Assembly: GCA_947304355.1 (NCBI GenBank)
Contig: CAMZAX010000007.1
Location: 1 to 64,000 of the forward strand
From: an uncultured Selenomonadales bacterium
Lineage (GTDB): Bacteria > Bacillota > Negativicutes > Selenomonadales > Selenomonadaceae
Reading direction: 5' to 3'
DNA: 64,000 nucleotides
The notes beneath the pieces are model-generated. The model did no database searches. It was not told where the DNA came from and saw only the letters and a list, made by a program, of their open reading frames with translations. Below, piece after piece: positions 24,018-38,626 of this stretch; the first letter of the stretch is position 1, and the number at the start of each line of letters is the position of its first letter. The position numbers were made by a program, and so were the translations under genes.

Positions 24018-24047
24018 TGAAGTCCTCCGCATTCGTTCACAGGATTT

Positions 24048-24081
24048 TTGACATGACGGAACATCTTTTCGGGCGTATTAT
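24048..24081 (+). promoter_or_regulatory. Promoter-like element of micro-ORF cassette 1
   Basis: TTGACATG (TTGACA at 24048-24053) and TATTAT (24076-24081) are 22 bases apart. The same layout (TTGAAATG, 22 bases, TATACT) precedes cassette 2. The 22-base gap is too long for an ordinary sigma-70 promoter, so the left half may be a regulator site. The downstream leader (GCAAGGATTAAGCAACAG... CCGAAAGG) is also similar to cassette 2. Confidence 0.45.
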
Positions 24082-24127
24082 GGGCAAGGATTAAGCAACA
24101 GGCAGTCGCCGAAAGGAAGTGAATTTT

Positions 24128-24190
24128 ATGCCGTGGTTCGTTGCAGGTTTCGTCGTTGCAGGTTCAATGATTCTCGCGTCTGATCGTTAA
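24128..24190 (+). CDS. Micro-ORF 1a (20 codons, hydrophobic)
   Basis: Starts after GAAAGGAAGTGA and encodes MPWFVAGFVVAGSMILASDR, a short hydrophobic peptide long enough to span most of a membrane. No known family. First of three tandem micro-ORFs, each with its own ribosome site. Confidence 0.5.
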   Translation: MPWFVAGFVVAGSMILASDR

Positions 24191-24209
24191 TTCTTTGGAG
24201 GTGACAATT

Positions 24210-24272
24210 ATGGGTTTCATGCCGGATTTTGAAGGTTCGTTGTCGGTTGGTATGCGTCGCGTATTTTTCTGA
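24210..24272 (+). CDS. Micro-ORF 1b (20 codons)
   Basis: Strong TTTGGAGGTGA site seven bases before ATG; encodes MGFMPDFEGSLSVGMRRVFF. Lies 19 bases after 1a. Its stop codon (TGA) directly abuts the next GGAGGTGA site. Confidence 0.5.
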   Translation: MGFMPDFEGSLSVGMRRVFF

Positions 24273-24286
24273 GGAGGTGAGCTGAT

Positions 24287-24313
24287 TTGATTGACGACAA
24301 AAAAATTTTTTAG
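24287..24313 (+). CDS. Micro-ORF 1c (8 codons, abuts terminator)
   Basis: TTG start after GAGGAGGTGA; encodes (M)IDDKKIF with a TAG that touches the terminator stem. Its D/K-rich composition and position match the last micro-ORF of cassette 2 (MNVDKTDKKFP). A ribosome stopping here would cover the terminator stem. Confidence 0.45.
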   Translation: MIDDKKIF

Positions 24314-24347
24314 CCGTTGCGTGCAGAAAGCGCAGCGGCGTTTTTTT
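24314..24347 (+). terminator. Terminator of micro-ORF cassette 1
   Basis: CCGTTGCG (24314-24321) pairs with CGCAGCGG (24331-24338, one G-U), then T7. Both arms are identical to those of the cassette 2 terminator. It also lies at the 3' end of the convergent CARF-HEPN gene. Confidence 0.85.
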
Positions 24348-26049
24348 ATGCATTGACCCGTTCAAGCGCGACAAGACAATCGTCAATGAGCCGCCGCAAG
24401 TCGGAAATTTTGGTCGTCGAGGATTCGTTTGCGTGATTGATTTGGTTGCGCTCGTGCCTTATCTCGTGGTAGCCGCGCAGGATTTTCAAGGCGGTGTCAA
24501 CGTCGGGTCTAAAGCTGATAATCCTTTGCCGAAAAAGCTCCCGATATTCCCGTTCGCGATTGTCCAAAAAGTTTTCGGCTTTCTCGGCGGGCGGCGTAAT
24601 TTTTTTGACAGTCGGTTCGCGCGCAATGGCGAAGGCTTGCATAAGTCTTTCGTCGGGCAGCTTGGCAAGCAACTCCGGAATCCTCGCGTAATTAAGCGTT
24701 CGCAGGAAGCCGTAAAAATTTCGTCGATAGGTCGGGTTTGCCTTGCGTTCGTCGAAAAGAGCCTGCAACGCGGCGGCAAGCGTCGGGTACCTGCCCTTGA
24801 AAGTTTTGACTGCCATTTTATTGCCCGCACAAAATCCGAAGTCAATCTCGGCTGTCGCGTACTCTTTGACGAAATTTTTCAGCTCGGGCAAGCGGGCGGC
24901 GTCGCCGGAATTCAACGCGTCGCGCAGGTCGCCGCAAGGGTTTCGCTTATTCGAGCCCTGCTCCGCAATTTTGTAGTCGATAATGAAGCATTGCTGCCAG
25001 CTCCTGTGCATGGAACGCCCCTTTGACGTGCAACTTTCAATGACCGTCGTATCGCGCGGCATACAGACTCTCCGCCGAACAATTTCTTCGGGCAGCCACT
25101 CGGTGCAAAGCGTCATTGCCTGTTGCCAAAAGCCCTTGCGCATACACCAGCGAATTATCTCAAGACGCGTCGCCGTCACGCCGATAAGTTTGCCGTATTC
25201 GTGCTCAATCGTGTCGATAATCTTCGCGAACAGTTCGCTTTTCAAGTCGCGGTCGGGGTGTTCGCGGAAAGCTTTTATGTTCCGGCTCAAATTTTCCAGC
25301 TCGCCTTCAATCGCGCTCGTTCGACAAATCTTTATCGCCTCGGCGAAACGGTTCATTGCCTCCAGCAAATCTTTCACGGCGGGCGGCGGTTCCGCGCCGA
25401 AGTAATCGTTCAACGCCTCGACGCTCCCGAATTTTACAAACTCGTCCGCACCCGTTATCAACGTGAACATGCGCTGTATTTCCGTCATGCGGTACACTTC
25501 GCGACTTGTCGGCTCGGAGTAAAGTACTTCGCCCGTCTTCACGCCACGATACCTGAGCAACTGAATTATCGACAGCATCAGCATTGACGTATGCCGAAAA
25601 CCGCCCGTCATGTCCGCATGTACCACGACTTCAGACGCCGCGCAACTTTTGGCGAAGTCCGTGACGGCGTCGGCGATTCGCGCGATTTGCAGGATGTTCC
25701 TTTCAAGCTTGGTCGAGCCCGTGCCTTCCTCCGAATAGTCTTGGATTGAAAACCGCTCCGCCAGTTGCGGGCATTCCTTCGCCACGCGCCGCTGCAAAAA
25801 CTCCAAATGCGTCACGTCGCCGAATTCGTTTTCGGGCTGTACTTTGCCGCTCTTGACCGAGTCGCTTGCGATTAAAAAAATTTGCGCCAACGAATCCGCG
25901 CCGAGCACGCGTGCCACATAAACGATCGCCGATTCGTTCGTTTGTATTGCCGTGTACGGTCGCCCTTGGATGTCGGGATATTCTATCGGCTTGTTCAGCG
26001 AGAACGCGCTCACCGGGCTGACGAACGCCAGCATGATATTTGTCGTCAT
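24346..26049 (-). CDS. CARF-HEPN CRISPR ancillary ribonuclease 2 (Csm6/Csx1-like, DxTHG family)
   Basis: The 567-residue homologue of the 20195 gene has a CARF loop HADMTGGFRHTSMLML (DMTGG at 146-150) and a C-terminal HEPN motif RNQINH (534-539). It should be a cyclic-oligoadenylate-activated RNase of the type III response. It lies one base downstream of a small Csx-like gene and is transcribed with it on the minus strand, in line with the CRISPR array and cas1-cas2. The two CARF-HEPN proteins share architecture but differ widely in sequence, so they may respond to different signals or form different dimers. Confidence 0.88.
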   Translation of the reverse strand: MTTNIMLAFVSPVSAFSLNKPIEYPDIQGRPYTAIQTNESAIVYVARVLGADSLAQIFLIASDSVKSGKVQPENEFGDVTHLEFLQRRVAKECPQLAERFSIQDYSEEGTGSTKLERNILQIARIADAVTDFAKSCAASEVVVHADMTGGFRHTSMLMLSIIQLLRYRGVKTGEVLYSEPTSREVYRMTEIQRMFTLITGADEFVKFGSVEALNDYFGAEPPPAVKDLLEAMNRFAEAIKICRTSAIEGELENLSRNIKAFREHPDRDLKSELFAKIIDTIEHEYGKLIGVTATRLEIIRWCMRKGFWQQAMTLCTEWLPEEIVRRRVCMPRDTTVIESCTSKGRSMHRSWQQCFIIDYKIAEQGSNKRNPCGDLRDALNSGDAARLPELKNFVKEYATAEIDFGFCAGNKMAVKTFKGRYPTLAAALQALFDERKANPTYRRNFYGFLRTLNYARIPELLAKLPDERLMQAFAIAREPTVKKITPPAEKAENFLDNREREYRELFRQRIISFRPDVDTALKILRGYHEIRHERNQINHANESSTTKISDLRRLIDDCLVALERVNA

Positions 26050-26050
26050 G

Positions 26051-26419
26051 TCAATACTCCCTGAACTGCACGAAACGGAACGTCGAAATTTGTCGGGCAG
26101 AGCCGTCGGGCAATATTTCTTCGGCGACGACGCGTTCGGACGTTGCCGCCACTGTCGTCACGCCAAAATTTTTCAGCCGCTCAACCATTGCGAACGTATA
26201 ATTGAATTCGCCTTGGCAAAGCACGGCGGCGGGCTTGTGTGCCAAAATTTTTGCAAGATTTTCTTCAACCAGCGCGACGACCTCGGCGGGCGTGGCGTCT
26301 GCGTCGACGTTCGGAAACGGAACATCAACAATCTCGCCGTAAGCCTGCGCTGCCGTCATTTGCTCCGCGCTCCAGCGCGCCGACGGGTGATTCGTGTGAT
26401 TCACAAAAATTTTTTTCAT
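26051..26419 (-). CDS. Small Rossmann-like CRISPR accessory protein (candidate ring nuclease)
   Basis: The ~122-residue protein begins KKIFVNHTNHPSARWS, has an alternating beta/alpha pattern with AVLCQGEFNYTFAMVERLKN, and ends near TTVAATSERVV. The fold prediction (short Rossmann/CARF-like) and position directly before a CARF-HEPN effector suggest a protein that binds or degrades cyclic oligoadenylate, like the Csx15/Csx16/Csx20 or Crn groups. The exact family was not recognised and activity is inference. The ATG at 26419 has GAGGTG six bases upstream. Confidence 0.6.
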   Translation of the reverse strand: MKKIFVNHTNHPSARWSAEQMTAAQAYGEIVDVPFPNVDADATPAEVVALVEENLAKILAHKPAAVLCQGEFNYTFAMVERLKNFGVTTVAATSERVVAEEILPDGSARQISTFRFVQFREY

Positions 26420-26447
26420 CGACTGCACCTCGCCGACAATTTAGCAC

Positions 26448-27689: not shown

Positions 27690-28640
27690 TCAGCGGTTAA
27701 GACAGGCGGAGAATTTCTTGACGCGTTCGTTAATCACTTCGCGGGAAGTCTTGTCGCCGTATTCGCGATATTTTTTCGCCATGTACTCTTCGTATCGGTT
27801 GCAAAAGACGATGCGGCCGTCGTCGGTCAAGCGGCACTCTTCGGGCGTCGCGGTGAAGTGTTCGGGCTGAATCATTCGTTTGTTGAGCAAATTCAGAACG
27901 AAACGGTCAATGACGGGCTGGCGGAAAAACTCCATAAGGTCGAAGATAAGCGAATCCTTTCTGCCGTCATTGGCGTGAAAGAAACCGATGCGGGCGTCCA
28001 TGCCGGAGAGCGCGGCGGCGATACGGACTTCGCGTTCAAGGAAAGCGTAACCGTAATTTAGCAGGGCATTGACGGGATCACGGGCGGGGTGTTGCGAACG
28101 TTCTTTCCACTTCCATTTTTGGTCGAGCAGATCAGGGAATGTCGCGAAGTAAATTTTTGCGGCGAGCCCTTCCGCGCCGCGCAGTTCGTCGAGGGTCTTC
28201 ATTGCGGCAAGCTTATCGGCGGTTTGCTTGAGCTTTTTCGCGGGCTTGTCGAGTTTTTCGGCACCGACGGTTTTTTCGTAGCGTTTAAGCAAGTCGCGCT
28301 GATTGGCGATTTTTTCGGCGACAACTTCCCGCGACAGATCGAGTTGCCTTACGGGGTCGCGGAAAATTTCCAGTTGGCGGAAGAGGCGCGCCGCCGATTG
28401 TTTCTCGTTAATGAAATGCCCGATGATTTTGCCGCGCCCGTCGATATAAAAAATCGGAATGCGCAGCTCCATGAGTTCAAAAATTGTCTGCGTCGAAAGT
28501 TGCGCGTTGTAGCCGACGACGACGCCGTCAATCAAGCGAACGGGCAGGCGTCCCAGGACTTCGGAATTTTTTTCGACGACAATGCGCGGACCGGCTTTAT
28601 GTGCGGCACTGCCCGCCGACAAAAGATAAAGTACGCCCAA
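27690..28640 (-). CDS. cas1: CRISPR integrase Cas1
   Basis: The 316-residue endonuclease inserts new spacers with Cas2. Active-site residues are visible: Glu in RGAEGLAAKIYF, His in GFFHANDGRKDSLIFD and Asp in DLMEFFRQPVIDRF. The N-terminal beta domain starts GVLYLLSAGS from a TTG codon at 28640 with GAGGTGA upstream. It is a stand-alone Cas1 without a fused reverse transcriptase. Confidence 0.96.
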   Translation of the reverse strand: MGVLYLLSAGSAAHKAGPRIVVEKNSEVLGRLPVRLIDGVVVGYNAQLSTQTIFELMELRIPIFYIDGRGKIIGHFINEKQSAARLFRQLEIFRDPVRQLDLSREVVAEKIANQRDLLKRYEKTVGAEKLDKPAKKLKQTADKLAAMKTLDELRGAEGLAAKIYFATFPDLLDQKWKWKERSQHPARDPVNALLNYGYAFLEREVRIAAALSGMDARIGFFHANDGRKDSLIFDLMEFFRQPVIDRFVLNLLNKRMIQPEHFTATPEECRLTDDGRIVFCNRYEEYMAKKYREYGDKTSREVINERVKKFSACLNR

Positions 28641-28651
28641 GATTTTTCACC

Positions 28652-28927
28652 TCACACGACGAGAAAGCCTTTTTCCTCTTCCAACGGTTTGGCGGAGAGC
28701 AACAGATTTTTTTCGCAAGCCTTGCAAAGCGGCACCATCAAGACGGAATTGCCTTTATCGGGGTCAGCGATTGCCAATAAATCCTTCCACACGATAGCCG
28801 CCCGCTCGGCGTCGAGTCGGCAACTGAAAACGCTGTATTGGACGCGCCACGCGAATCGCTCAAGGTAATTGACGATATTGTCGCGCGTTTTGTCGTCCGG
28901 GATGTCGTAGCATATGATGTAGCGCAC
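28652..28927 (-). CDS. cas2: CRISPR adaptation protein Cas2
   Basis: The 91-residue protein has a ferredoxin-like fold start MRYIICYDIPDDKTRDNIVNYLERFAWRVQYSVF with the conserved Asp after the first strand. It starts at GTG 28927 and precedes cas1 by 11 bases. It is divergent from micro-ORF cassette 2. Confidence 0.95.
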   Translation of the reverse strand: MRYIICYDIPDDKTRDNIVNYLERFAWRVQYSVFSCRLDAERAAIVWKDLLAIADPDKGNSVLMVPLCKACEKNLLLSAKPLEEEKGFLVV

Positions 28928-29006
28928 AAGACTTCAGCTCACAAGAATTTTTCGTTAATGTAACACAACGCCTGCCGCGCCGCAACTGCCGACATTCACA
29001 GGAAAA

Positions 29007-29040
29007 TTGAAATGCGCTCTGCCGACGCCCGTGCTATACT
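29007..29040 (+). promoter_or_regulatory. Promoter-like element of micro-ORF cassette 2
   Basis: TGCTATACT is an extended -10 (TATACT 29035-29040). TTGAAATG begins 28 bases upstream (TTGAAA 29007-29012, 22-base gap), matching the spacing and TTGA-ATG core of the cassette 1 element. The following leader has GCAAGGTTAGGGAAGCA and CCGAAAG, similar to cassette 1. Confidence 0.5.
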
Positions 29041-29108
29041 GCGCTTGCAAGGTTAGGGAAGCACCCCGACCGAAAGATTCCTTGAAAACCGAATATCGAA
29101 AGGAGCCG

Positions 29109-29141
29109 ATGCCTATAGCACCACGTTCACGGGAAAAGTGA
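29109..29141 (+). CDS. Micro-ORF 2a (10 codons)
   Basis: Encodes MPIAPRSREK after GAAAGGAG (spacing three bases, rather short). Unlike its neighbours it is basic, not hydrophobic. Translation uncertain. Confidence 0.3.
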   Translation: MPIAPRSREK

Positions 29142-29195
29142 TTCGCAAAATTTCTGCCGAATTGGTAAGATGCACTTTGAAAGGAGTTGGTAAGT

Positions 29196-29303
29196 ATGTT
29201 CTTCTTGGCACCGTTGTTCACCGCCGCCGCCACCACCGAAGCCATAACCTCATTCACCGCCGGCGCAACCACCGCAGTTACCGTCTTCTCGCGCCGCGAC
29301 TAA
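29196..29303 (+). CDS. Micro-ORF 2b (35 codons, Ala/Thr-rich hydrophobic)
   Basis: ATG after GAAAGGAGTTGGTAAGT. Begins MFFLAPLFTAAATTEAI and ends TVFSRRD: a hydrophobic, Thr/Ala-rich stretch followed by a basic end, as in small membrane peptides. No family recognised. Longest member of the cassette. Confidence 0.5.
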   Translation: MFFLAPLFTAAATTEAITSFTAGATTAVTVFSRRD

Positions 29304-29324
29304 TTTGAAAGGAAGGTTTGCAAA

Positions 29325-29378
29325 ATGTCGGAAGCTGAATTGTTGCTGTGGTGGCTGACCTACGGATACTTGTTCTAA
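29325..29378 (+). CDS. Micro-ORF 2c (17 codons, Leu/Trp-rich)
   Basis: Encodes MSEAELLLWWLTYGYLF after GAAAGGAAGG. Strongly hydrophobic with two Trp. Resembles micro-ORF 2f (LLLWYLLL). Confidence 0.5.
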   Translation: MSEAELLLWWLTYGYLF

Positions 29379-29407
29379 GCCGCCGCAGTTGAAGGGAGGT
29401 TGACCGC

Positions 29408-29458
29408 ATGGAAAAGTTGGCTCTGATGTTGTTGCTCGATGTTCTTTTCGGCGAATGA
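29408..29458 (+). CDS. Micro-ORF 2d (16 codons, Leu-rich)
   Basis: Encodes MEKLALMLLLDVLFGE after AAGGGAGGTTGA. Its TGA overlaps the ATG of 2e (ATGATG/TGATG), allowing re-initiation. Confidence 0.5.
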   Translation: MEKLALMLLLDVLFGE

Positions 29459-29523
29459 TGCTCAAGCAGTTCAGCCGCACGGGAGGTGATGTTTATAGCG
29501 TAGCCGTCGACTTGCCGCGTTAA
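29458..29523 (+). CDS. Micro-ORF 2e (21 codons)
   Basis: Starts at the ATG overlapping the 2d stop; begins MLKQFSRTGGDVYSV. An internal GGGAGGTGA (29481-29489) has no good start codon at the usual distance (ATA instead of ATG), so this may mark a decayed further micro-ORF. Confidence 0.35.
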   Translation: MLKQFSRTGGDVYSVAVDLPR

Positions 29524-29552
29524 ATCTTCAGCCTTGAAAGGAGGTGAATAGC

Positions 29553-29594
29553 ATGGGTGAATTGTTGTTGTGGTACTTGTTGCTTCGTGACTGA
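29553..29594 (+). CDS. Micro-ORF 2f (13 codons, Leu/Trp-rich)
   Basis: Very strong GAAAGGAGGTGA site; encodes MGELLLWYLLLRD, a short hydrophobic peptide with a charged end, similar to 2c. Confidence 0.55.
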   Translation: MGELLLWYLLLRD

Positions 29595-29630
29595 TACTAA
29601 CCCGCGTAGATTTGAGAGGAGGTGAAAAAT

Positions 29631-29681
29631 ATGGCATTCCCGTTCCCGTTTCCGCTCACGTTCCCGCCGATAGTGTACTAA
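29631..29681 (+). CDS. Micro-ORF 2g (16 codons, Phe-Pro repeat)
   Basis: GAGGAGGTGAAAAAT before ATG; encodes MAFPFPFPLTFPPIVY. The start region, GGAGGTGAAAAATATGGCATTC (written here as 12 + 10 bases: GGAGGTGAAAAA, TATGGCATTC), is identical to that of 2h, so the two arose by duplication. Confidence 0.55.
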   Translation: MAFPFPFPLTFPPIVY

Positions 29682-29729
29682 AATTCCAAACCGCTACTCA
29701 ATCGTTCAAAAAAAAAGGAGGTGAAAAAT

Positions 29730-29795
29730 ATGGCATTCTCGGCATTCGCCCCGCGCCCTCTGCCCGGTTGCTTTACGTGGCCGTTCCGTTGGTAA
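29730..29795 (+). CDS. Micro-ORF 2h (21 codons, Phe/Pro/Trp-rich)
   Basis: AAAGGAGGTGAAAAAT before ATG; begins MAFSAFAPRPLPGCF and ends WPFRW. Shares its start region with 2g but has diverged afterwards. Confidence 0.55.
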   Translation: MAFSAFAPRPLPGCFTWPFRW

Positions 29796-29837
29796 TCTGA
29801 AGTTCGTTGCGAAAAATTTTTGGAGGTGATTGCTAAA

Positions 29838-29873
29838 ATGAACGTCGACAAAACAGACAAAAAATTTCCTTAG
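29838..29873 (+). CDS. Micro-ORF 2i (11 codons, abuts terminator)
   Basis: TTTGGAGGTGATTGCTAAA before ATG; encodes MNVDKTDKKFP. Its TAG touches the terminator stem exactly as in cassette 1, and the D/K pattern is shared with MIDDKKIF. Confidence 0.5.
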   Translation: MNVDKTDKKFP

Positions 29874-29901
29874 CCGTTGCGTTAAAGCGCAGCGGTTTTT
29901 T
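29874..29901 (+). terminator. Terminator of micro-ORF cassette 2
   Basis: CCGTTGCG (29874-29881) pairs with CGCAGCGG (29888-29895), then T6. Both arms are identical to those of cassette 1. Confidence 0.88.
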
Positions 29902-29902
29902 C

Positions 29903-29931
29903 TTGCAAAAATTTCACGATTGGTGCATAAT
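29903..29931 (+). promoter_or_regulatory. Promoter of the type III-D effector operon
   Basis: TTGCAA (29903-29908), 17 bases, CATAAT (29926-29931), 20 bases before the cas10 start. It begins two bases after the cassette terminator T run, so the operon can be expressed without readthrough. Confidence 0.6.
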
Positions 29932-29951
29932 GACGCCACGGAGGTGAGCGG

Positions 29952-31640
29952 ATGGTTCAAAAAATTTTTAATGCGTTGCTGTTCGACACGCGGAGCATCC
30001 AACGCTACATTTATTCGGGCGACAGACTTCGCACAAACGTCGGCGCGTCTTACATTGTCGACAGGCTTTTTTTCGACGTGCTTATTAAAGACGTGCTCAA
30101 GCCTATGTTCCCCGAAGACCGATTCGCTGTGGAAGACGACGCGTGGAATCCGACTGCGGACGCAACACAGCCTTGGACTGAAATGAAGTCTTGCTGCGTG
30201 GCGTATATCGGCGGCGGCAATGCTTTGTTGCTGTTCGATTCGTCGATGCCGGACAGACGCAACGAGGTCGTCGAAAAATTTACGCGCAGACTTTTGGTCA
30301 AACGTCCCGGCTTGAAAGTCGGCGCGGCGACAGGCAAGTTGGAGCAAATCGGCGACAAGCTCAATCAAGACGACATTGACGCCCTTTATCTAAAGCTCAA
30401 GGAAAATCAAAATCGCATTTTCCCGACAGTGAACGTGCCTTACAGCGGCTTAACGCTCAGCTGTGAAATTAACGGCGAGACCGCGAATTTCTGCGACACG
30501 GCGGGCGTCGTCCGCAAGCGCGAAGGTGATGTTCGTTTCTATTCGCAAGAGGCCGCCGTTAAAGCCAAAATCGCCGTGGAGGCAAACAAAAATCTGCACG
30601 ACCGCTTCAACGAAATTTTCGCGCTTAAACAACTCGACGGGCTGACAGATTTCGACTTTCCGACCGAAGTTGAAAAGCTCGGTCAAAAGGAAGGCGAAAA
30701 TTATTTTGCGATAGTGCACGTCGACGGCAACAACATGGGCTTGAAGTTCCGGAAGTGTACGGGCTTGATTGAACGCCGCATATTGTCGCGCGAAATCCGC
30801 CGCAAGACCGAAGGCGCGGTTGCCGACCTGCTTGCCAAAATCATACGCATGAAAAGCGCGGGCGGCTTCGACGGCGTGCTTGACCTCGACGAAAAATTTT
30901 TGCCGATACGCCCGCTGATAATCGGCGGCGACGACGTAACATTTTTCTGCCCGGCACAGACGGCGATTTTGTTCACAAAGACGCTCATGGAAAATTTGTA
31001 CGCAACCACGCCCGACAACGCGCCCGAACATTTGACGAAGCCGATTTCCCGACGCATGGACGCCTGCGCGGGCATCGCCATCCTGCCGACAAAGTACCCG
31101 TTCTTTCGCGGTTACGAATTGGCGGAACAGCTCTGCGACACGGCTAAAAAATCCATGCGCGAACTCGCTCAAAACTCAGACGATTCGGCGGACGATCTGC
31201 GCGGGTCAAGTTGGTTGGACTTCGCGATTCTTCACGGCGAACAGGCTCCGACTCTCGAACAGATTCGCTCGACGGAATATCGCGGCGCGCGCGGCAACTT
31301 GCATTTCGGTCCCTACCGCGTTTGCAACGACAAGGCTCCTTACAAGCGCGACCGCCTTCACAATTTGGAAAACCTTCTCGCCTGCACCACGCAATTTCCG
31401 AAGACAATGGCGAACAACAAAATCAAGGAATTGCGCGGCGTCCTTCAACGCGGGCAAGACGATGCAAAGAAATTTTTGCAACAGCTTGAACGTCAACAAC
31501 AGCACTTGCCCGACGTGCCGGATTGGGATAATTTCCTTGAAACGCTTTGGCATAACGACGCAACGCCTTACGTCGACGCGATAGAACTCATGGACTTTTA
31601 CAACGGAGAGGTGGCAGACGCATGGCAACGATTGACGTGA
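29952..31640 (+). CDS. cas10: Cas10, HD-less type III-D signature protein
   Basis: The 562-residue large subunit makes cyclic oligoadenylate when the complex binds target RNA. An N-terminal palm starts FDTRSIQRYIYSGDRLRTNVGASY. The catalytic palm has AIVHVDGNNMGLKF and an intact GGDD at 325-328 (IIGGDDVTFFC). There is no N-terminal HD nuclease domain, and the protein is short for Cas10 (usually 700-1000), as described for subtype III-D. DNA cleavage by Cas10 is therefore not expected; immunity would rest on RNA cleavage and the CARF-HEPN RNases. It overlaps the next gene by 19 bases. Confidence 0.9.
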   Translation: MVQKIFNALLFDTRSIQRYIYSGDRLRTNVGASYIVDRLFFDVLIKDVLKPMFPEDRFAVEDDAWNPTADATQPWTEMKSCCVAYIGGGNALLLFDSSMPDRRNEVVEKFTRRLLVKRPGLKVGAATGKLEQIGDKLNQDDIDALYLKLKENQNRIFPTVNVPYSGLTLSCEINGETANFCDTAGVVRKREGDVRFYSQEAAVKAKIAVEANKNLHDRFNEIFALKQLDGLTDFDFPTEVEKLGQKEGENYFAIVHVDGNNMGLKFRKCTGLIERRILSREIRRKTEGAVADLLAKIIRMKSAGGFDGVLDLDEKFLPIRPLIIGGDDVTFFCPAQTAILFTKTLMENLYATTPDNAPEHLTKPISRRMDACAGIAILPTKYPFFRGYELAEQLCDTAKKSMRELAQNSDDSADDLRGSSWLDFAILHGEQAPTLEQIRSTEYRGARGNLHFGPYRVCNDKAPYKRDRLHNLENLLACTTQFPKTMANNKIKELRGVLQRGQDDAKKFLQQLERQQQHLPDVPDWDNFLETLWHNDATPYVDAIELMDFYNGEVADAWQRLT

Positions 31641-32278
31641 CGATAAAAATTTTGTCGCCGATTCATTTGGGCTCCGGTCAAGCTGATGTAAACGTCGACG
31701 CCGAAATTGTTCGCGACGAATTCGGCTTCCCTTACTTCCCCGGCAAAAGATTCAAAGGCTTGCTTTATGAAAGCGCGGTTGAAGTCGTCGAAATGTTTGA
31801 ACTCAGCGGGCTCGCCGCCGAACAATCCGCGTTGCTCGAAAAAATTTTCCACAGACGCTCGGAAAGTGCGGTTCAGCTCGTCGTGCCGAATTTCTTCATT
31901 CGCCCGCGTGACGAATACGAACGCCTCTGCGCGGAGTGGAAATATTTGCAACGGCGATTCCCCGCTGTCTTCACGGCGACGGAAGTCTTGAACGCGTTCA
32001 CGTCGTTGCGCTATCAGACACGCCTTGAAGACGGCGTGGCAACGGACGGCTCCTTGCACAATCTGCGCGTGCTCGAAGACGGCTTGGAATTTTTCGGCGA
32101 AATAACTTTGTTCAACGCCGATGACGAAATCCGTACCCTGCTGGCGTTGGCGATTAAAAATTTGACTGCGGCGGGCACGAAACGCAATCGCGGCTTCGGG
32201 CGAATCAAATGCACGGCGACCTTTGACGGCTTACCCGCCGATAAAATCGTCGAAAAATTTTTCGCGGAGGTGGCGTGA
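31622..32278 (+). CDS. Cas7-like RAMP (Csm3-type backbone subunit)
   Basis: The 218-residue RAMP protein begins IDVTIKILSPIHLGSGQADVNVD and has the typical FGFPYFPGKRFKGLLYE loop and a C-terminal glycine-rich GTKRNRGFGRIKC. Csm3/Cas7 subunits form the crRNA-binding backbone and cut target RNA with an aspartate in the first loop; Asp in VNVDAEIVRD is a candidate. It is translationally coupled to cas10. Confidence 0.85.
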   Translation: MATIDVTIKILSPIHLGSGQADVNVDAEIVRDEFGFPYFPGKRFKGLLYESAVEVVEMFELSGLAAEQSALLEKIFHRRSESAVQLVVPNFFIRPRDEYERLCAEWKYLQRRFPAVFTATEVLNAFTSLRYQTRLEDGVATDGSLHNLRVLEDGLEFFGEITLFNADDEIRTLLALAIKNLTAAGTKRNRGFGRIKCTATFDGLPADKIVEKFFAEVA

Positions 32279-32280
32279 GT

Positions 32281-33840
32281 ATGCATCGATTGGAATTTGT
32301 CATCAAAACGCTGTCGCCATGCGTCCTCACGTCGACCAGCAACGCGACCGTCATGACGGGCACGCATTCGGCTTTCAGCGGCTCGATTGTTCGCGGAATA
32401 CTTGCTTCACGCTACGTTGCTGTTCAAAAGCTCAGTGACGAGGCGCACGACAAAACGTTCCGCGAAATTTTTTTCGGCGGCTTGAAGTTCCTGCCCGCCA
32501 ATCCCGACTTGCTGAACAAACGCGCTTTCGTACTGCCGATGTCGTTGCAGAGCGGCAAAGCCGGCACATCCGACGGCGACAAGATTCAAGACCTGCTCGG
32601 CGACGAAAAACCCCGACGCGGTTACAAAAGTTTTCGCGGCTTCGGCGTCCTTGACGGCAATAAAATTTTCAGACCGCAAGTCAAAACGAATATGTTCATG
32701 CACATGAGTCGCAGCGGCGAAAAGGAACGCACGGCGGGCAGGAGCGTCGACGGGCAAATCTACAATTACGAGGCTCTCGACGCCGGGCAAGTCTTTCGCG
32801 GCGAAATTATCGGCGACGAAAATCTTTTGCGGCAACTGCGCGACGGGCTCGCTTTGGACGGCGACAACATGCCGGCTTATATCGGGCGGTCAAAGTTCAC
32901 GCAATACGGCAAATGCCTCGTGACTTTCGGCGACGTTAAACCACTGCCCGCGCAGATTGACGCCGATAAAATTTTCTTGCGCCTGGACACGCCGCTTATC
33001 CCCGCAAACGATTGCTTCTTGAACGCCGAAAAAATTTTGACGACGGAAGTCGCGGACAAACTCGGCGAAAAATTTTCGATCGGCAAAGTGTTCGCGTCCG
33101 GCGTCGAAGTCGAAAATTTCGTCGTGCCTTGGGGCATGAAACGTCCGCGCGTTTCGGCTTTGGCGTCGGGCTCCGTCTTTGAGCTGAAAACCGCTGCGCC
33201 CCTGACTGACGACGATAAAGCCTTACTGAACGAAAAAATATTCGCGGGTTTCGGTTTGCGCACGGAAGAGGGTTTCGGACAAGTACGACTTTGGCAACCG
33301 TCGCCCGATTTCTTGAAAGGCACGCACGACAAAGATGACCTTGCACAGCCCGAAACGTTTTCGGCAGAGACCGTCGCGCTGGCGAAAAAAATCTTGACGG
33401 CTTATCTTTTGGAGCAGGTAAGGATTGACGCCTACGAAGACGCCGAAAAACTTCGCCCGCAACTGCGGCGCGGCAACATGACGCACTTTTTCACGCGGCT
33501 CGGCGGTATCCTTTCAAGCGTCGGCAAAAACAACGTCCGTGAAAATTTCAAGGCGCGTCTTGAACTTGAAATTCGCGGCGGCAGTCGCTTCGAAGAACAT
33601 TTGAAAAAATTCGAGATGGCGAACGGACAGAAATTCTTCGACGTGTTCACCGGCAGAGCTGATTTCCCGCGCAACGTTCACGACTTGATAAGCGAAACCG
33701 CGACGGGGCAACTCAAAGGCGTGATTGATTTCGGCGACGACGATTTTTCGGACGACGCATTCATTACAGAGTATCTGACGAATTATTTCCGCTCCGCACG
33801 CAAAATCGCGGCGTCTTCGGGAGGTGAAAGGCGTGAATAG
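32281..33840 (+). CDS. csx10: Csx10-like RAMP (Cas5-type) with long helical C-terminus
   Basis: The ~519-residue protein starts HRLEFVIKTLSPCVLTS and has GTHSAFSGSIVRGILASRY and a glycine-rich GLRTEEGFGQVRLW loop near residue 325, as in Csx10, the Cas5-like subunit of III-D. After ~residue 345 comes a ~170-residue mostly helical extension that does not look like a RAMP. No separate Cas11 (small subunit) gene is visible in the operon, so this extension is a candidate for a fused small subunit. The ATG at 32281 has GGAGG ten bases upstream and is preferred to the GTG at 32275. Confidence 0.78.
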   Translation: MHRLEFVIKTLSPCVLTSTSNATVMTGTHSAFSGSIVRGILASRYVAVQKLSDEAHDKTFREIFFGGLKFLPANPDLLNKRAFVLPMSLQSGKAGTSDGDKIQDLLGDEKPRRGYKSFRGFGVLDGNKIFRPQVKTNMFMHMSRSGEKERTAGRSVDGQIYNYEALDAGQVFRGEIIGDENLLRQLRDGLALDGDNMPAYIGRSKFTQYGKCLVTFGDVKPLPAQIDADKIFLRLDTPLIPANDCFLNAEKILTTEVADKLGEKFSIGKVFASGVEVENFVVPWGMKRPRVSALASGSVFELKTAAPLTDDDKALLNEKIFAGFGLRTEEGFGQVRLWQPSPDFLKGTHDKDDLAQPETFSAETVALAKKILTAYLLEQVRIDAYEDAEKLRPQLRRGNMTHFFTRLGGILSSVGKNNVRENFKARLELEIRGGSRFEEHLKKFEMANGQKFFDVFTGRADFPRNVHDLISETATGQLKGVIDFGDDDFSDDAFITEYLTNYFRSARKIAASSGGERRE

Positions 33841-35194
33841 TTCAAGCGTTATCGGCAAAATTTTAATCGAGGGCGATTTGGTTTTGATGTCGCCGCTTCT
33901 GATTGGCGACGGCGCGGGCGAAACTTCCGACAACTTCCGCGACGTGCACGTCCTTAAAAATCGGCGCGGCGAACCGTTCATACCCGGCACTTCGCTTTGC
34001 GGCGTTCTGCTTGATTGGCTTGAAAACGTATCGCCCGCTTGGTCTACAAAAATTTTCGGCGACACAGACGAAATGCAAAGTTCAATTCAAGTTGAAGACA
34101 TTGCATTGACGGGCAGCGAAGTCATTGCTCGTGATGGCGTGCGCATCGACGGCTTGACGGGCACAGGCGAAGACGGCGGCAAATACGATTTCGAGGTCGT
34201 GGAACGCGGCGCGGCAGGTAAGCTTCGCCTGCTGATAAATCTGCGCGGCATTCACGTCAACAAAAATTTCGACGGCGACAAAAATTATTCGCTTGACGAC
34301 ATAACTGCGGTAGTCGCCCGCCTGTCGCGCAGATTGCATGACGGGATTCGACTCGGCGCGCTCACGTCAAAAGGTTTCGGATTGGTCGCCGCCAAAAACT
34401 TGACTGCAAGCCTTTACGACTTCCGCGACGCCAATGACGTTGCCGCGTGGCTCACCGAAAAAAAGCCCGCTCGTGAAATTCAACCGTCCTCCGAACAAAA
34501 TTCCGCAAGCCCGAAAGATTTCGTCGTCGACGCGCAATTTCAATTCAACTCGTCATTCATTATCCGCGATTATGACGTCAGCGCGAAGGATAAGGAAAAA
34601 AATATTTCTGCCGTAACGCTCAAGAGCCGCAAGGATTTCGTCATTCCCGGCACCGGTCTCAAGGGCGTCCTGCGCCACCGCGCCGAATACATCTTCGGCA
34701 AGCTCGGTCTCGACACAAAACTTTTGGACGGCTTGATGGGCACTTCGGCGGACGACAAAAAAATCAAGAGTCGCTTTATCGTGGCGGAAAGTTACATCGC
34801 CCCCGAATACTTCGCAGAAGTCGAACACACGCGCAACAAAATCGACAGATTCACGGGCGGCACGTTGCAAGGCACACTGTTCACCACAAAGCCCGCTTAC
34901 CAAAAGAATCGCGGCGCGGCAACGTTCAATCTCCATTTTGAAATTCGCGATGCCAACGAAGCCGAAGCCGGCCTTGCGATTTTTTTGTTGCGAGATTTGT
35001 GGCTCGGTCGCGTGGCTTTGGGCGGCGAAAAATCTGTCGGGCGCGGCACCGTCAGCGGTCTTTCCGCCGAAATCTGTTTCAACGGCAAGACTTACAAACT
35101 CGGCGCGAACGGCAAAGTTATCGGCGACGGCAAGTCGGAGCTTGAAGACTTCGCGACAGCATTGAAACATTTCGCGGGAGGTGACGGCAAATGA
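33833..35194 (+). CDS. Double-RAMP protein (Cas7-2x type)
   Basis: The ~453-residue protein has two Cas7-like domains. The first starts ILIEGDLVLMSPLLIGDGAGE with PFIPGTSLCGVLLDWL. The second has the same features around KDFVIPGTGLKGVLRHRAEYIF and VALGGEKSVGRGTVSGL. A tandem Cas7 fusion is known in III-D2 complexes, where one gene supplies two backbone positions. The GTG at 33833 has GGAGGTG just upstream; it overlaps the csx10 stop by eight bases. Confidence 0.82.
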   Translation: MNSSSVIGKILIEGDLVLMSPLLIGDGAGETSDNFRDVHVLKNRRGEPFIPGTSLCGVLLDWLENVSPAWSTKIFGDTDEMQSSIQVEDIALTGSEVIARDGVRIDGLTGTGEDGGKYDFEVVERGAAGKLRLLINLRGIHVNKNFDGDKNYSLDDITAVVARLSRRLHDGIRLGALTSKGFGLVAAKNLTASLYDFRDANDVAAWLTEKKPAREIQPSSEQNSASPKDFVVDAQFQFNSSFIIRDYDVSAKDKEKNISAVTLKSRKDFVIPGTGLKGVLRHRAEYIFGKLGLDTKLLDGLMGTSADDKKIKSRFIVAESYIAPEYFAEVEHTRNKIDRFTGGTLQGTLFTTKPAYQKNRGAATFNLHFEIRDANEAEAGLAIFLLRDLWLGRVALGGEKSVGRGTVSGLSAEICFNGKTYKLGANGKVIGDGKSELEDFATALKHFAGGDGK

Positions 35195-35757
35195 ACGGCT
35201 TGGACTTGGCCAAACGAGTCGGTCTTCAGCTTGGCGAGTGCAAATCTTTTTCGGAACCGATTGACTGCCCTGCGACAGAACTCGAAAAATTTCTGCGCGG
35301 GAAAATCGACGACGGCATTGTCGTGGCGTGGCAAGTTCAAAGCGTCGTCTGGGGCTCGTTCGACGGCAAAAAATTTTTCTTCAAGGACAACACCGCGCCA
35401 AACGTTGACGACTGGTTGGAGTGTCGCATTTTCAACGAGAGCGCGGAAATTCATCTTAAACGTTCGGGCAACAAATTTATCGGGCGTTTCATTCGCGACG
35501 CGGCGGGCAACGGTACTTTCTGCGTCGACAGCTTTTCACGGCTTTGGGGCGAGTGCACGGCGGCGACGGGCGATTGGATAACTTTGACTGACAAGCCACG
35601 CAAAATTTCCATGACGTTGCCCTGCGCCGGCGACGGCAAAAAATTTTACGGACTTTTGACACGAAACTATATCGGCAGCGACGACGCAACGGGCTTGAGC
35701 GGATACGTCGATTATCGTTTCGTCGCGATTGAGCCCGCCGATTGGGACGGTGATTGA
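35191..35757 (+). CDS. csx19: Csx19-like protein
   Basis: The 188-residue protein has a mostly beta pattern with VVAWQVQSVVWGSFDGKKFFF and a C-terminal YVDYRFVAIEPADWD. Size, composition and position between the double RAMP and the long RAMP match Csx19 (TIGR03984 type), a small subunit of unknown function that marks subtype III-D. Assignment rests partly on context. It is coupled by an ATGA overlap to the gene before it. Confidence 0.65.
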   Translation: MNGLDLAKRVGLQLGECKSFSEPIDCPATELEKFLRGKIDDGIVVAWQVQSVVWGSFDGKKFFFKDNTAPNVDDWLECRIFNESAEIHLKRSGNKFIGRFIRDAAGNGTFCVDSFSRLWGECTAATGDWITLTDKPRKISMTLPCAGDGKKFYGLLTRNYIGSDDATGLSGYVDYRFVAIEPADWDGD

Positions 35758-35758
35758 C

Positions 35759-37762
35759 ATGGGAAGAAAAGGCATTTCGCTTGACGAACTCAGACAACAA
35801 CGCGGATTCAAATCGCCCGAAGATTCGCCGCCGAAGAAGAAACTTCAGCAACAAAGAAATTTTCAATCGCAACGCAATTCGCAACCGCAACAAAATCCTG
35901 CGCGGCAAGCGACTGCGCCTTATAACTTCGTCTCGTTGCCCGAAAAGGTTTTGCCCGCGCAATTTAACGGCGTCGACGGCTTCAAAGAACACCTCGGCTC
36001 GTCGGGCAACATCAGCGGCGAAATTTTATTGGACATCTCGACTTTGACACCGCTTTTCATCGGCGGCAACGGCTCGAAGAGTTTCGCGCCCGTCGACAAG
36101 CCGATTATCCCCGGCTCGTCTCTGCGCGGCATGTTCAAAAATATTTTCAAAATCGTGACGTGCGGCGCATTTCGCGGGCAGACGACTTCGCAAGGCAAGG
36201 GCGAAGACTTCAACGACGAACACATTTATTTCCGCGCGCTCATGGGCGTCGGGCGTTATCCTTGGACGAAGGATTTGAACAAACTTTACAACGGCAGGAT
36301 GACACACAGCGCGAAGGGCAAGGACGGCAAATTGCACCCCGTCAAGAACGCGCGCCCCGGCTTTTTGATTTGCACGACCGACAACAAATACTTTATCGCG
36401 CCGTCGATTTACAAAAGCGACCGCAAGGAAGACCGCACTCTGATTCGCGAATACGAAGAGAAATTCCACGCGCGCATTGACGAAAGAAATTCCAGTTGCG
36501 TCGAATGGCATGACGGCACGGCTTACATAATCACGGGCAGCCAGAATTTTGAAAAGCTTTATTGTGGCAAATGCTATGATAAATTGAAGGGTGACGACAA
36601 GAAAAAAGCCGGCAAGCAGTTTATTCGATTTACCAAACTCGATTACGTCGATTGGAGCCGAGACCATTGGATTGACTTGCCCGAAGAAGTCCGCACCTCC
36701 TACGAACACGACCGCAACCGTCGCGGCGTCGACTTGTTCACCGACAAAGGCATTATGAAACGCGCCGAGCTTGAACGACTGACAAAAAAATCTTTGCCCG
36801 ACATCAAGTCGCTGATTCCCTGCCACTTCCTTGAGGAGCGCGGGCAAGTCACGGCGTTCGGGCACGGGCAATGTTTCCGCATTCCCTATCAAAAACGAAT
36901 CGGCGACGCCGCAAAAATTTTGGACAACAACGCGACAGACTTCGCCGACGCCGTTTTCGGGTGCACCGAGCTTTGGGCAAGCCGCGTTTACTTCGAGGAC
37001 GCCGTGCCCGTCGACGGCAAAGTTTCCGAACTTGCTGCGGCAAAGGCGCATCCGCTCATGCAACCCAATCCGACTTCATATCAGCTCTACCTCAAGCAAG
37101 ACGGCGACACGCTGAATCATTGGGACGCCGTTGCCGCGCAGATTCGCGGTTACAAATTTTATTGGCACAACGACACCGACGATTGGAAGGCAAACGCCTT
37201 TGAACTCGGCGAAAATCAAAAACGCGTCGACGGCGGGAAAGAACCTTTGACCAAAGACATCACGCCGCTTAACAGAGGCAACAAGTTCCTTGCAAAGATT
37301 CGTTTCAAAAACCTCAGCGCGGTCGAACTCGGCGCGTTGATGATGATGTTCGATTTGTACGGTTCAACTGACGCGGCTTACAAAATCGGCATGGGCAAGC
37401 CCTTCGGCTTCGGCAGCGTCCGAATCAAGCCGACGCTTTTGGTTGAAAACGACGACGCCTATTCCGAACTTTTCGGCGCGGACGGCTGGCAAAACCCTTG
37501 CTGCGAAAAAAATCCCGCCGAATATCTCGACGCCTTCAAAGATTATCTGCGGTCTTGCGACATGTACGAGACGTGGCGACAGGTTATGGTTGAGTTGAAA
37601 AAAATTCTGGACTGGTCGTTGACCAAGCGGGAGCGTTGGAGCCAAAAAATTGCAACCATGCGCGGCAGCGTCAAAATCCGAGACGGCAAGCAAACCATGG
37701 AGCTTGACGAGCGTTTTCGGCAACGTGACCCCTTGCCGACAATCTTCGACGTGGTCAAATGA
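35759..37762 (+). CDS. Long RAMP protein with large insertion (TIGR03986 type, Cas7-insertion)
   Basis: The ~667-residue protein has a Gln/Arg-rich N-terminal tail (residues ~10-60, many Q and N), then a RAMP start SGEILLDISTLTPLFIGGNGS and IIPGSSLRGMFKNIFKI. A long insertion (~residues 130-400) includes YCGKCYDK with a CxxC pair. A second RAMP-like half ends with IGMGKPFGFGSVRIK. This matches the TIGR03986-type subunit of III-D, the Cas7 with insertion. The ATG at 35759 is preceded by GGGACGGTGA. Confidence 0.8.
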   Translation: MGRKGISLDELRQQRGFKSPEDSPPKKKLQQQRNFQSQRNSQPQQNPARQATAPYNFVSLPEKVLPAQFNGVDGFKEHLGSSGNISGEILLDISTLTPLFIGGNGSKSFAPVDKPIIPGSSLRGMFKNIFKIVTCGAFRGQTTSQGKGEDFNDEHIYFRALMGVGRYPWTKDLNKLYNGRMTHSAKGKDGKLHPVKNARPGFLICTTDNKYFIAPSIYKSDRKEDRTLIREYEEKFHARIDERNSSCVEWHDGTAYIITGSQNFEKLYCGKCYDKLKGDDKKKAGKQFIRFTKLDYVDWSRDHWIDLPEEVRTSYEHDRNRRGVDLFTDKGIMKRAELERLTKKSLPDIKSLIPCHFLEERGQVTAFGHGQCFRIPYQKRIGDAAKILDNNATDFADAVFGCTELWASRVYFEDAVPVDGKVSELAAAKAHPLMQPNPTSYQLYLKQDGDTLNHWDAVAAQIRGYKFYWHNDTDDWKANAFELGENQKRVDGGKEPLTKDITPLNRGNKFLAKIRFKNLSAVELGALMMMFDLYGSTDAAYKIGMGKPFGFGSVRIKPTLLVENDDAYSELFGADGWQNPCCEKNPAEYLDAFKDYLRSCDMYETWRQVMVELKKILDWSLTKRERWSQKIATMRGSVKIRDGKQTMELDERFRQRDPLPTIFDVVK

Positions 37763-38574
37763 TCGGCGCGGTCGTTTACCTGTTGCGGGCGGAAAATTCG
37801 GCACCCTTGTCGCCGATAAACGGGCGGCTTATGCACGCGGCGTTCTTCAAAATTCTGAACGATTATTCGCCAATGCTGGGTTCCTTCGTCCACAACGAAC
37901 AAAACTTAAAACCGTTCACGGTATCGTTTCTTGAATCGGCGCAAGACTTTGCGGACGGCGACGAGCGGCGTTTGATTCGGCGCGGCGAAAAATTTTTTTG
38001 GCGCGTGACGGGGCTCAACGAAGACATTCTTCAAGCGGCGTTGAACGTGGCTGTCGGAGAAAAAATCCAAGCCGGTGCCTTGTCCTTGCGCGTGGAAAAA
38101 ATCATCTGCAACAACAACGCCCGCGCCGATTCGGGCATCATCTCGGTCGAAGATTTTATCTTCGCCGTCAAACACGCGCCGCCCGTCAAGGAAATTCGCT
38201 TTGACTTCGTGTCGCCCGTGTCCTTTCGCATTGACGACTTTGACGCGCCGTATCCGCGCCCCGAATTGATTTTCGCTTCACTCGCCGACAAGTGGTCACA
38301 ATCAGAAATGCCCGCTGCCGTCGACAAAAAATTTATTCGCGAACTCGCCGCGCAGATTCATCTGACTCAATGGAGCGGTGAGAGCCGAAAATTTTATTTC
38401 GGGCGCGACAGAGGAACGCTGGCTTTCTTCGGGCGGTTCCTTTACAACGTCGAGGATACGGACAAAGATTTAAACAAAGTCTTCACGTTGCTTGCCAAGT
38501 TCGGCGAATTTTCCGGCGTCGGTCGATTGACGGGACAAGGTTTCGGACAAACGAGCGTTTCGTGTTTCAGCTGA
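37759..38574 (+). CDS. cas6: Cas6 crRNA-processing endoribonuclease
   Basis: The 271-residue RAMP cuts pre-crRNA in the repeat. The N-terminus has GRLMHAAFFKILN with a conserved His that may be catalytic. The C-terminus is the classic Cas6 glycine-rich loop FSGVGRLTGQGFGQTSV. It is last in the III-D operon (ATGA overlap). Its own coding sequence contains a short match to the core of the CRISPR repeat near 37907-37923. Confidence 0.9.
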   Translation: MIGAVVYLLRAENSAPLSPINGRLMHAAFFKILNDYSPMLGSFVHNEQNLKPFTVSFLESAQDFADGDERRLIRRGEKFFWRVTGLNEDILQAALNVAVGEKIQAGALSLRVEKIICNNNARADSGIISVEDFIFAVKHAPPVKEIRFDFVSPVSFRIDDFDAPYPRPELIFASLADKWSQSEMPAAVDKKFIRELAAQIHLTQWSGESRKFYFGRDRGTLAFFGRFLYNVEDTDKDLNKVFTLLAKFGEFSGVGRLTGQGFGQTSVSCFS

Positions 38575-38594: not shown

Positions 38595-38626
38595 AACGCC
38601 TGAGCAATCGGGCGGTTTTAATTTTT
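38595..38626. terminator. Hairpin between cas6 and the defence operon
   Basis: CGCC (38597-38600) and GGCG (38611-38614) with flanking A and T runs; it lies between convergent genes and could serve both. The stem is short. Confidence 0.4.

Follow-up and report, generated by a model that had tools for sequence, protein, structure and literature searches.

What fills the gap between cas2 and cas10 in a type III-D CRISPR locus, if it holds no gene of ordinary length? The question is raised by a stretch of 64,000 nt from contig CAMZAX010000007.1 of an uncultured Selenomonadales bacterium (the window; contig G000:C7 of genome G000, other G numbers standing for the relatives compared). The contig has a G+C content of 51.6%, and the genome comprises 2.4 Mb at 88.5% completeness. 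An earlier note on this DNA had described the gap as an array of nine tandem tiny open reading frames (ORFs). We consider it very likely that this array (cassette 2) and another one in the same locus (cassette 1) are real, selected, CRISPR-linked operons, which encode micropeptides. Such operons form part of the type III-D CRISPR module in Quinella and its relatives, which are rumen bacteria.

The plus strand from 28928 to 29951 carries eight micro-ORFs that start with ATG and are backed by a Shine-Dalgarno (SD) site, together with the four-codon ORF MFIA. The nine ORFs of the earlier note thus stand for the most part, with MFIA, of four codons only, as the probable ninth, while the first ORF (29109) is probably no gene, because it straddles the seam to a second, weaker copy of the promoter element described below. 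It probably only marks the place where one promoter unit meets the next; G055 has four copies of this unit and G057 has five, and most seams there form an ORF like 29109. The full SD site GGAGGTGA was found at four of the eight ORFs, and not at most of them as had been stated; the others have GGAGGT (29408), AGGAG (29109 and 29196) or AAGGA (29325). The start regions of the ORFs at 29631 and 29730 are indeed identical. The MFIA sequence ATGTTTATAGCGTAG is identical across cassette 2 of G000, G055, G073 and G057.

By a counting rule that requires GGAGG or AGGAG as SD site and 7–45 codons (it takes in 29109 and leaves out 29325), cassette 2 holds seven ORFs, versus a mean of 0.11 and a maximum of two in 1000 dinucleotide shuffles, and the reverse strand of the region holds none. 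The motif GGAGGTGA occurs six times in the cassette 2 region (one being the site of cas10 itself) versus 0.009 times in the shuffles. Over the genome, 42 matches to GGAGGTGA-N3-9-ATG were listed (two overlap), and four of them lie in cassette 2 within about 300 bp. Cassette 1 is not outstanding by the counting rule (one ORF, shuffle maximum two) and has two copies of GGAGGTGA versus a shuffle maximum of one. In none of the relatives compared is there a long gene in the gap or a single long intact gene in place of the array, the outcome by which the earlier note would have recognized a decayed gene. The array is confirmed as real and not a decayed gene. No RNA family of Rfam reached the gathering level in the window.

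The micropeptides fall into classes, which are A (FF..AGA..VF.RR), B (WFVAGFV), C (LLLWWL or amphipathic), D (FPFPFP), D' (PDF..VFF) and E (DD..KK, at the terminator). Class C counterparts of MGELLLWYLLLRD in other genomes are MGELLLWWLLLRD, MLGEILWWLILRR and MLEDLLWWLIRR, FPFPFP peptides of class D are present in G053, G057, G060, G080 and G107, and for ORF 29408 (MEKLALMLLLDVLFGE) no orthologue was identified. We determined dN/dS by Nei-Gojobori counts with Jukes-Cantor correction for seven peptide sets, which leave out classes D and E and ORF 29408. The values were 0.18 (near set) and 0.25 (far set) for class A, 0.19 for class B, 0.49 for class D' (eight own-genus sequences), 0.41 for class C, 0.29 for D2 (three sequences) and 0.26 for the 17 aa class C peptide (two sequences). 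In plain DNA alignments third codon positions were the most changed in all five comparisons, with a strong excess in cassette 1 (0.036/0.054/0.207 for the three positions), and in four of the five the ORFs had diverged less than the intervening spacers. These codon changes indicate, at the level of sequence comparison, purifying selection on the peptides. The rapid change of the peptide that had been assumed for the array is not supported, given such classes and a dN/dS of 0.18–0.49; loci differ in the classes they contain and in the copy number of each.

Recurrence was followed in 189 genomes of the family (cas10 and profile searches) and in 380 Negativicutes genomes (tandem-site pattern). 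Relatives of cas10 occur in 52 of the 189 genomes, 24 of which belong to the same genus as the window's genome. A clear cassette is present in 11 of these 24 (G000, G053, G055, G057, G060, G066, G073, G078, G080, G098 and G108), and two more hold a cassette remnant (G103 and G084). Profile A1, which represents class A, found 12 places in ten genomes at E ≤ 1.5e-5, several of them sources of the profile; the places beyond these are in G107, G060, G073 (a second place), G012 (two) and G078. For class B, profile A3 found 13 places in 11 genomes at E ≤ 1.8e-6, again including several profile sources, with G000, G073 (two), G057 and G098 beyond them. Weaker matches (six for A1 and 16 for A3), mostly partial and many of them within longer frames, were left out of these counts. 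Both cassettes are found in G107, which gave no cas10 match and is 59% complete. Outside the genus, G012 has two arrays with classes A, B, C and D' that adjoin cas genes, and G008 has two D'-like ORFs near cas1.

The tandem-site pattern is blind to the peptide sequence, and its spacing was tuned on the window. It matched 22 places in 14 of the 380 genomes, and 17 of these (nine genomes) are the cassettes described here. The other five matches (G210, G025, G063, G067 and G378) are a longer ORF or a short ORF that precedes a longer one. The cassettes of G078, G080, G098 and G108 are missed by the pattern because their SD sites differ. The reversed pattern gave no match in two runs, that on the 380 genomes among them, and one match each in two runs on the 189 genomes, and an earlier pattern with shorter gaps matched in three of the 189 genomes, the window's cassette not being among the matches. 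The place of the cassette is not fixed. Cassette 2 of G060 is found between the CRISPR array and csx20, and the gap between cas2 and cas10 of this genome, on another contig, measures about 120 bp; G066 and G078 each have a single cassette, which is flanked by csx20 and csx1 and runs in the same direction as these genes. Type III-D loci with broken cas genes were seen in G084 (L157) and G103 (L094), and the cassette remnant is still there. G073 has two cassette sets on different contigs (L085, L144 and L145), which represent two loci or a mixed assembly. In G173, of another genus, a class C-like micro-ORF (MGEVLHWLLERRW) with GGAGGTGA lies just ahead of csx1 (L171, 245-286).

Judging from its signals, each cassette looks like a transcription unit of its own (24036-24339 for cassette 1, 28995-29897 for cassette 2). 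A 20 bp element, TTCRCAGGA-www-TTGAMATG, followed by a −10 box about 22 bp on, is found ahead of 21 of the 26 cassette regions, the best copy in each matching at least 13 of 16 positions. The five regions that do not have it are the two of G012, those of G008 and G103 (remnant), and one G073 region that is cut by the contig end. The strict pattern occurs twice in the window's genome, before cassette 1 (24036) and before cassette 2 (28995), and no third site in the 64 kb window reaches 13 of 16. The distance from TTGAMA to the best −10 box within a range of 15–26 bp was 21–23 bp for 32 copies out of 33 (two of them tied with 20 bp) and 20 bp for the exception, G060c1. A promoter scan found no standard promoter where the cassette 2 element lies, a result compatible with a promoter that needs an activator.

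At the other end of the cassettes, a pattern search recovered a similar terminator block in 20 of the 26 regions; weak matches to parts of the block are also present at other places in the genome, and a scan of cassette 2 gave two terminator-like sites at a shuffle mean of 1.6. In all 20 terminator-bearing regions an SD-backed ORF (by a relaxed list of SD sites) ends at the start of the stem or 11–14 nt into it, and a terminal ORF that meets the stem in this way is possibly part of a translation-coupled terminator. The 5′ untranslated region (UTR) of cassette 2 contains a boxA-like element. BoxA is placed in the 16S leaders and in the spacers of rRNA operons. In the rRNA operons of three family genomes the boxA core (TTGAAAACT in G140 and G039, CTGAAAACT in G025) was present in nine of nine 16S leaders and eight of nine spacers, and the longest exact match between an rRNA operon and a cassette was 13 bases. 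A longer string, CTTTGAAAACTNNATA, was found in three of ten genomes: G055 has it in its cassette, and G140 and G141 each have a single site away from the 16S places; the 16S was not found in G068 and G177 during this comparison.

Cassette 2 does not look like a part of the cas10 operon: promoter element and terminator are its own, there is another promoter-like site ahead of cas10, and the G060 cassette is placed elsewhere. That site, TTG[CA]AA-N17-CATAAT, is located at the same place ahead of cas10 in seven of eight regions checked (not in G080); in a scan of the window for a promoter before cas10 the result was not beyond chance (one found, shuffle mean 1.0). A function of the cassette as leader or attenuator of cas10 is disfavoured by cassette 1, which has no downstream gene in its direction, by the layout in G060 and by the promoter-like site before cas10.

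Which regulator could act on the element is suggested by the two overlapping WYL genes that diverge from cassette 1. Of the nine cassette 1 regions with the element, seven have it 19–33 bp from the start of the wyl2 gene, or of the match to it; element and gene are separated by CRISPR repeats in G060, and in G108 the WYL genes are beyond the contig end. A WYL domain was recognized in both genes (PADLOC WYL profile, 1.6e-13 and 1.6e-7), and the first one also matches Pfam WCX (6.7e-9), which the second does not; NCBIfam gave no match for either. In the stretches of G012, cassettes occur with neither a WYL match nor a preceding element (one 13/16 match is inside cas1), and the contig of G110 has csx1 and csx20, but no WYL match, element or cassette. 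We regard control of the cassettes by the WYL pair as fairly probable. Among known WYL activators, DriD has binding sites that overlap the −35 element, whereas the heterodimer PafBC adapts sigma; both sense single-stranded DNA (PMC12340889 and PMC11804915). The cassettes are like these systems in that WYL regulators go together with dedicated promoter elements (PMC12340889, PMC11804915), and the element sits where a −35 box would be, as for DriD; the two adjacent WYL genes recall the two subunits of PafBC. They are unlike them in that no sequence match is strong enough for membership and in that the proposed targets are micropeptide operons. Since WYL proteins can also repress, as does BrxR (PMC9122601), activation and repression by the pair are both possible.

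What the peptides do can be approached from their properties. The GRAVY value is positive for eight of the nine window peptides, and interfacial sums are clearly favourable for five. Class A is predicted to form one helix of 28 residues (residues 5–32, mean pLDDT 86, predicted from six sequences), and such a lone short predicted helix says little on function. Ten peptides of at least 20 aa gave no match below E = 0.05 in PHROGs, Pfam or NCBIfam, and no CARF, SAVED or other ligand-binding domain; with no sensor domain in these ten, the cassettes are probably not a cyclic-nucleotide effector by themselves. Our preferred reading, for which we claim slightly less than even confidence, is that the cassettes are WYL-activated operons of membrane-active micropeptides that serve type III-D immunity as growth-arrest effectors. 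The adjacent WYL pair would bind the element as an activator similar to DriD or PafBC and, on sensing nucleic-acid ligands from phage attack or DNA damage, would switch the operons on. BoxA would let RNA polymerase read through the transcript (Nus antitermination), and the peptides may then act on the membrane of their own cell, slowing or stopping growth. Class A would contribute a helix, class B a transmembrane-like segment, class C short Leu/Trp-rich or amphipathic peptides and class D aromatic Phe-Pro peptides, and together they would be a second arm beside the Csx1 RNases. The membrane-active effector role, taken for itself, we propose tentatively.

A number of observations weigh against this reading. 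No antitoxin or immunity gene was identified. Interfacial sums are unfavourable for class A (+0.9) and for the 16 aa class C-like peptide (+1.6) and about zero for D', and class E is polar. The link to WYL consists of position and co-occurrence; wyl1 matches PafC in the PDB at E = 0.1, wyl2 matches no WYL chain, and the stretches examined of G084 and G108 gave no WYL match. The element was defined on the same sequences, and 13/16 matches that have nothing to do with cassettes exist (L087, inside cas1, L153 and L155). A boxA-like core is present in the 5′ UTR of seven of ten cassettes 2, two of ten cassettes 1 and one of three single own-genus cassettes, and the match to the rRNA operons is limited to a core of 9–13 bases. 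The dN/dS values come without a null control, and in the far sets alignment by peptide biases them towards low values, an effect that hardly touches the near class A set. In the near cassette 2 set third positions exceed the others only weakly (0.142/0.078/0.156), and in the far cassette 2 set the ORFs are slightly more diverged than the spacers (0.348 versus 0.326). Finally, no cassette was found within the stretches examined of 11 of the 24 own-genus genomes with cas10, and the module is therefore dispensable. Absence from these 11 is not proved, because nine of the stretches also gave no match to csx1, csx20 or WYL. At the cut-offs used, the class A and B profiles found nothing in the whole genomes of the 11 (partial class B matches were obtained in G090, E = 0.27, and G105, E = 0.49), a negative that is weak because the profiles also miss the cassette carriers G066 and G080.

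Other readings were compared with the effector reading. The peptides may be small partners of membrane or CRISPR proteins and no toxins, tuning for example Csx1/Csx20 or a membrane complex of the host. The occurrence of several classes in one operon and the usual neighbours csx1B and csx20 suggest specific parts over redundant toxins, and classes A and D' are not strongly membrane-favouring by their interfacial sums. As the presence and the number of classes vary between loci, the G107 stretch has both cassettes with no csx1 or csx20 match, and no partner was identified, we regard this as rather unlikely. Lower still is the probability we give to a regulatory RNA, in which translation of the micro-ORFs would sense the translation state (for instance a block by a phage) and the last ORF at the terminator would be the switch. 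The terminal ORF at or in the stem in 20 of 20 regions would suit such a switch, as would the very short ORFs with strong SD sites and the cassettes of G066 and G078 that lead towards a co-directional csx1. It is opposed by selection at the peptide level, by the separate promoter-like site ahead of cas10 in seven of eight regions, and by cassette 1, which has no gene to regulate in its direction because csx1 is convergent. Secreted peptides, bacteriocins or signals that sit in the CRISPR locus by chance, are very improbable in our view. Leaderless bacteriocins are typically short hydrophobic, amphipathic peptides, and a MATE-family transporter gene is located at 19038-20009, about 4 kb from cassette 1; this gene is unmatched in the stretches of the 22 relatives compared, no modification or immunity gene was recognized among the window genes scanned, and the database searches with the ten peptides, described above, brought no match.

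Equally improbable is a CreT-like RNA toxin, a mini-ORF with a strong SD that would sequester a scarce tRNA and be restrained by a CRISPR-guided antitoxin. Strong-SD mini-ORFs with a subsequent stem-loop beside a CRISPR locus are what one would expect of it, and mini-CRISPRs lie beside cassettes in G108, G060 and G107. Spacers of the window's own array, compared with the cassettes, gave p ≤ 0.05 in six of 40 tests, and mini-CRISPR spacers reached at least the 95% shuffle level in three of 14 tests, one of them in repeat sequence and none convincing; short matches of this kind are thus in weak excess over expectation. The spacer matches span at most about 25 of 41–48 nt, with nulls from simple shuffles, no repeat-like match exceeded the 95% shuffle level in either window cassette, and the peptide sequence is selected. 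Moreover, the repeated codons are common ones (TTG 35.4, TTC 36.5 and CCG 19.6 per 1000 among 10,642 codons of 22 window ORFs), with only single rare codons; CreTA is disfavoured on this account, since the window peptides do not show its consecutive rare codons. That the ORFs arose by chance, by decay of a gene, or opposite an ordinary gene on the other strand, we hardly believe at all. The peptides are short, some are of low complexity, and long antisense frames exist; against this stand the shuffles, the conservation and the dedicated promoter element. Of the three antisense frames (105, 119 and 220 aa), two are interrupted by stop codons in relatives, and the 119 aa frame finds a counterpart of only 41–51 aa in the two nearest relatives; Pfam gave no match below E = 0.01 for any of them. 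An origin from phages or plasmids was likewise rejected: one class A peptide was unmatched in phages and plasmids and one class B peptide in plasmids. In viral contigs the class A profile was unmatched (59 stretches fit the pattern, none was confirmed), and the promoter pattern occurred in five stretches, none with SD-backed micro-ORFs within 900 bp.

The reading as effector operons also invites comparison with known systems. Like CreTA (PMC8501985), the cassettes combine strong-SD mini-ORFs with a subsequent stem-loop, are encoded in a CRISPR locus and would be self-acting. CreT overuses a rare codon, so that the codon and not the peptide counts, and is controlled by a CRISPR-like guide RNA (PMC8501985); the cassettes have common repeated codons, peptides that look selected, no identified guide and several ORFs per transcript. 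With type I toxins (PMC8309996, PMC6563280) they share small hydrophobic peptides, expected on the cell's own membrane. Type I toxins usually consist of one peptide with an antisense RNA (same sources), whereas here multi-class arrays lie behind a shared promoter element. If the proposed role holds, the micropeptides would be comparable to Cam1, Csx23 and CorA as a membrane arm of type III immunity (PMC11229360). Cam1 and Csx23 have a signal-binding domain in the same protein, and none was found in the micropeptides scanned (at least 20 aa).

The features of the locus are compiled in Table 1. The gene order is csx1, two WYL genes, cassette 1, csx1, csx20, CRISPR array (37 bp repeats), cas1-cas2, cassette 2, cas10 to cas6, and PglZ. 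The cassettes, the first csx1 and cas10-cas6 are on the plus strand; the WYL pair, the second csx1, csx20, cas1-cas2 and PglZ are on the minus strand. The micro-ORF array thus lies within a type III-D locus, as had been recognized before, flanked by cas1/cas2 and cas10 and accompanied by Csx19, TIGR03986 and Cas6. Two different Csx1 (CARF-HEPN) genes and a Csx20 gene are found in this one type III-D locus. Directly past cas6, and convergent with it, is a PglZ gene of the BREX-4 type (38618-40612). The reverse complement of spacer 8 of the ten window spacers matches 29665-29679 (15 nt, one mismatch), the best match among 40 tests (p = 0.003). Extra short CRISPR arrays, some with degenerate repeats, were seen in L091 (G108:C5), L084 (G060:C95) and L083 (G107:C6), beside cassettes or between cassette 2 and cas10.

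Table 1. Positions of the two micropeptide cassettes and of associated genes in the window.
Feature	Position	Strand	Remarks
csx1	20195-21856	+	
Two overlapping WYL regulator genes	21887-22822 and 22806-24017	-	divergent from cassette 1
Promoter/operator element, cassette 1 (TTCACAGGATTTTTGACATG)	24036..24055	+	19 bp from wyl2 start; -10 TATTAT at 24076-24081
Class B micropeptide MPWFVAGFVVAGSMILASDR, cassette 1	24128..24190	+	profile A3, dN/dS
Class D' micropeptide MGFMPDFEGSLSVGMRRVFF, cassette 1	24210..24272	+	relatives include MFGFMPVDIPFPAGTIVFF in G012, another genus
Class E terminal micro-ORF LIDDKKIF, TTG start, cassette 1	24287..24313	+	
Intrinsic terminator, cassette 1	24313..24339	+	resembles that of cassette 2
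csx1 (CARF-HEPN)	24346-26049	-	usual cassette neighbour
csx20	26051-26428	-	usual cassette neighbour
cas1 and cas2	27690..28927	-	divergent from cassette 2
Promoter/operator element, cassette 2 (TTCACAGGAAAATTGAAATG)	28995..29014	+	-10 TATACT at 29035-29040
boxA-like element CCTTGAAAACCGAATA in 5′ UTR	29080..29095	+	12-base exact match to G140 16S leader
Micro-ORF MPIAPRSREK, promoter-unit seam, probably not a peptide gene	29109..29141	+	second element copy (12/16) at 29126
Class A micropeptide MFFLAPLFTAAATTEAITSFTAGATTAVTVFSRRD, 35 aa	29196..29303	+	profile A1, dN/dS, predicted helix
Class C micropeptide MSEAELLLWWLTYGYLF, 17 aa	29325..29378	+	homologue MADMELLLWRITYEYMF in G057
Class C-like micropeptide MEKLALMLLLDVLFGE, 16 aa	29408..29458	+	SD GGAGGT
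Four-codon ORF MFIA right behind GGAGGTG	29489..29503	+	start 2 nt past GGAGG
Class C micropeptide MGELLLWYLLLRD, 13 aa	29553..29594	+	identical peptide in G055
Class D micropeptide MAFPFPFPLTFPPIVY, 16 aa	29631..29681	+	FPFPFP peptides in relatives
Class D2 micropeptide MAFSAFAPRPLPGCFTWPFRW, 21 aa	29730..29795	+	orthologues in G055, G073
Class E terminal micro-ORF MNVDKTDKKFP, 11 aa	29838..29873	+	stop abuts terminator stem
Intrinsic terminator, cassette 2	29872..29897	+	11 pairs
Promoter-like site before cas10, TTGCAA-N17-CATAAT	29903..29931	+	fixed layout in relatives
Type III-D effector operon, cas10 to cas6	29952..38574	+	

The literature searched, which took in few subscription journals, contained no published description of such an array, in agreement with the earlier note. 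ORFs of 11–41 codons would be easily missed, as surveys of CRISPR-linked genes presumably start from called proteins; one large survey of type III systems kept Cas10 proteins of over 500 aa and set WYL regulators aside (PMC11229360). It is possible, though we put it forward with reserve, that WYL-activated, boxA-protected multi-peptide membrane-toxin operons represent a CRISPR effector of a new kind, which would arrest growth without depending on the cyclic nucleotide signal. If the peptides are not effectors, their operons, with the rRNA-like boxA core, remain unusual. If they are, type III immunity would have an overlooked class of weapons, made of peptides too short for usual gene finding.

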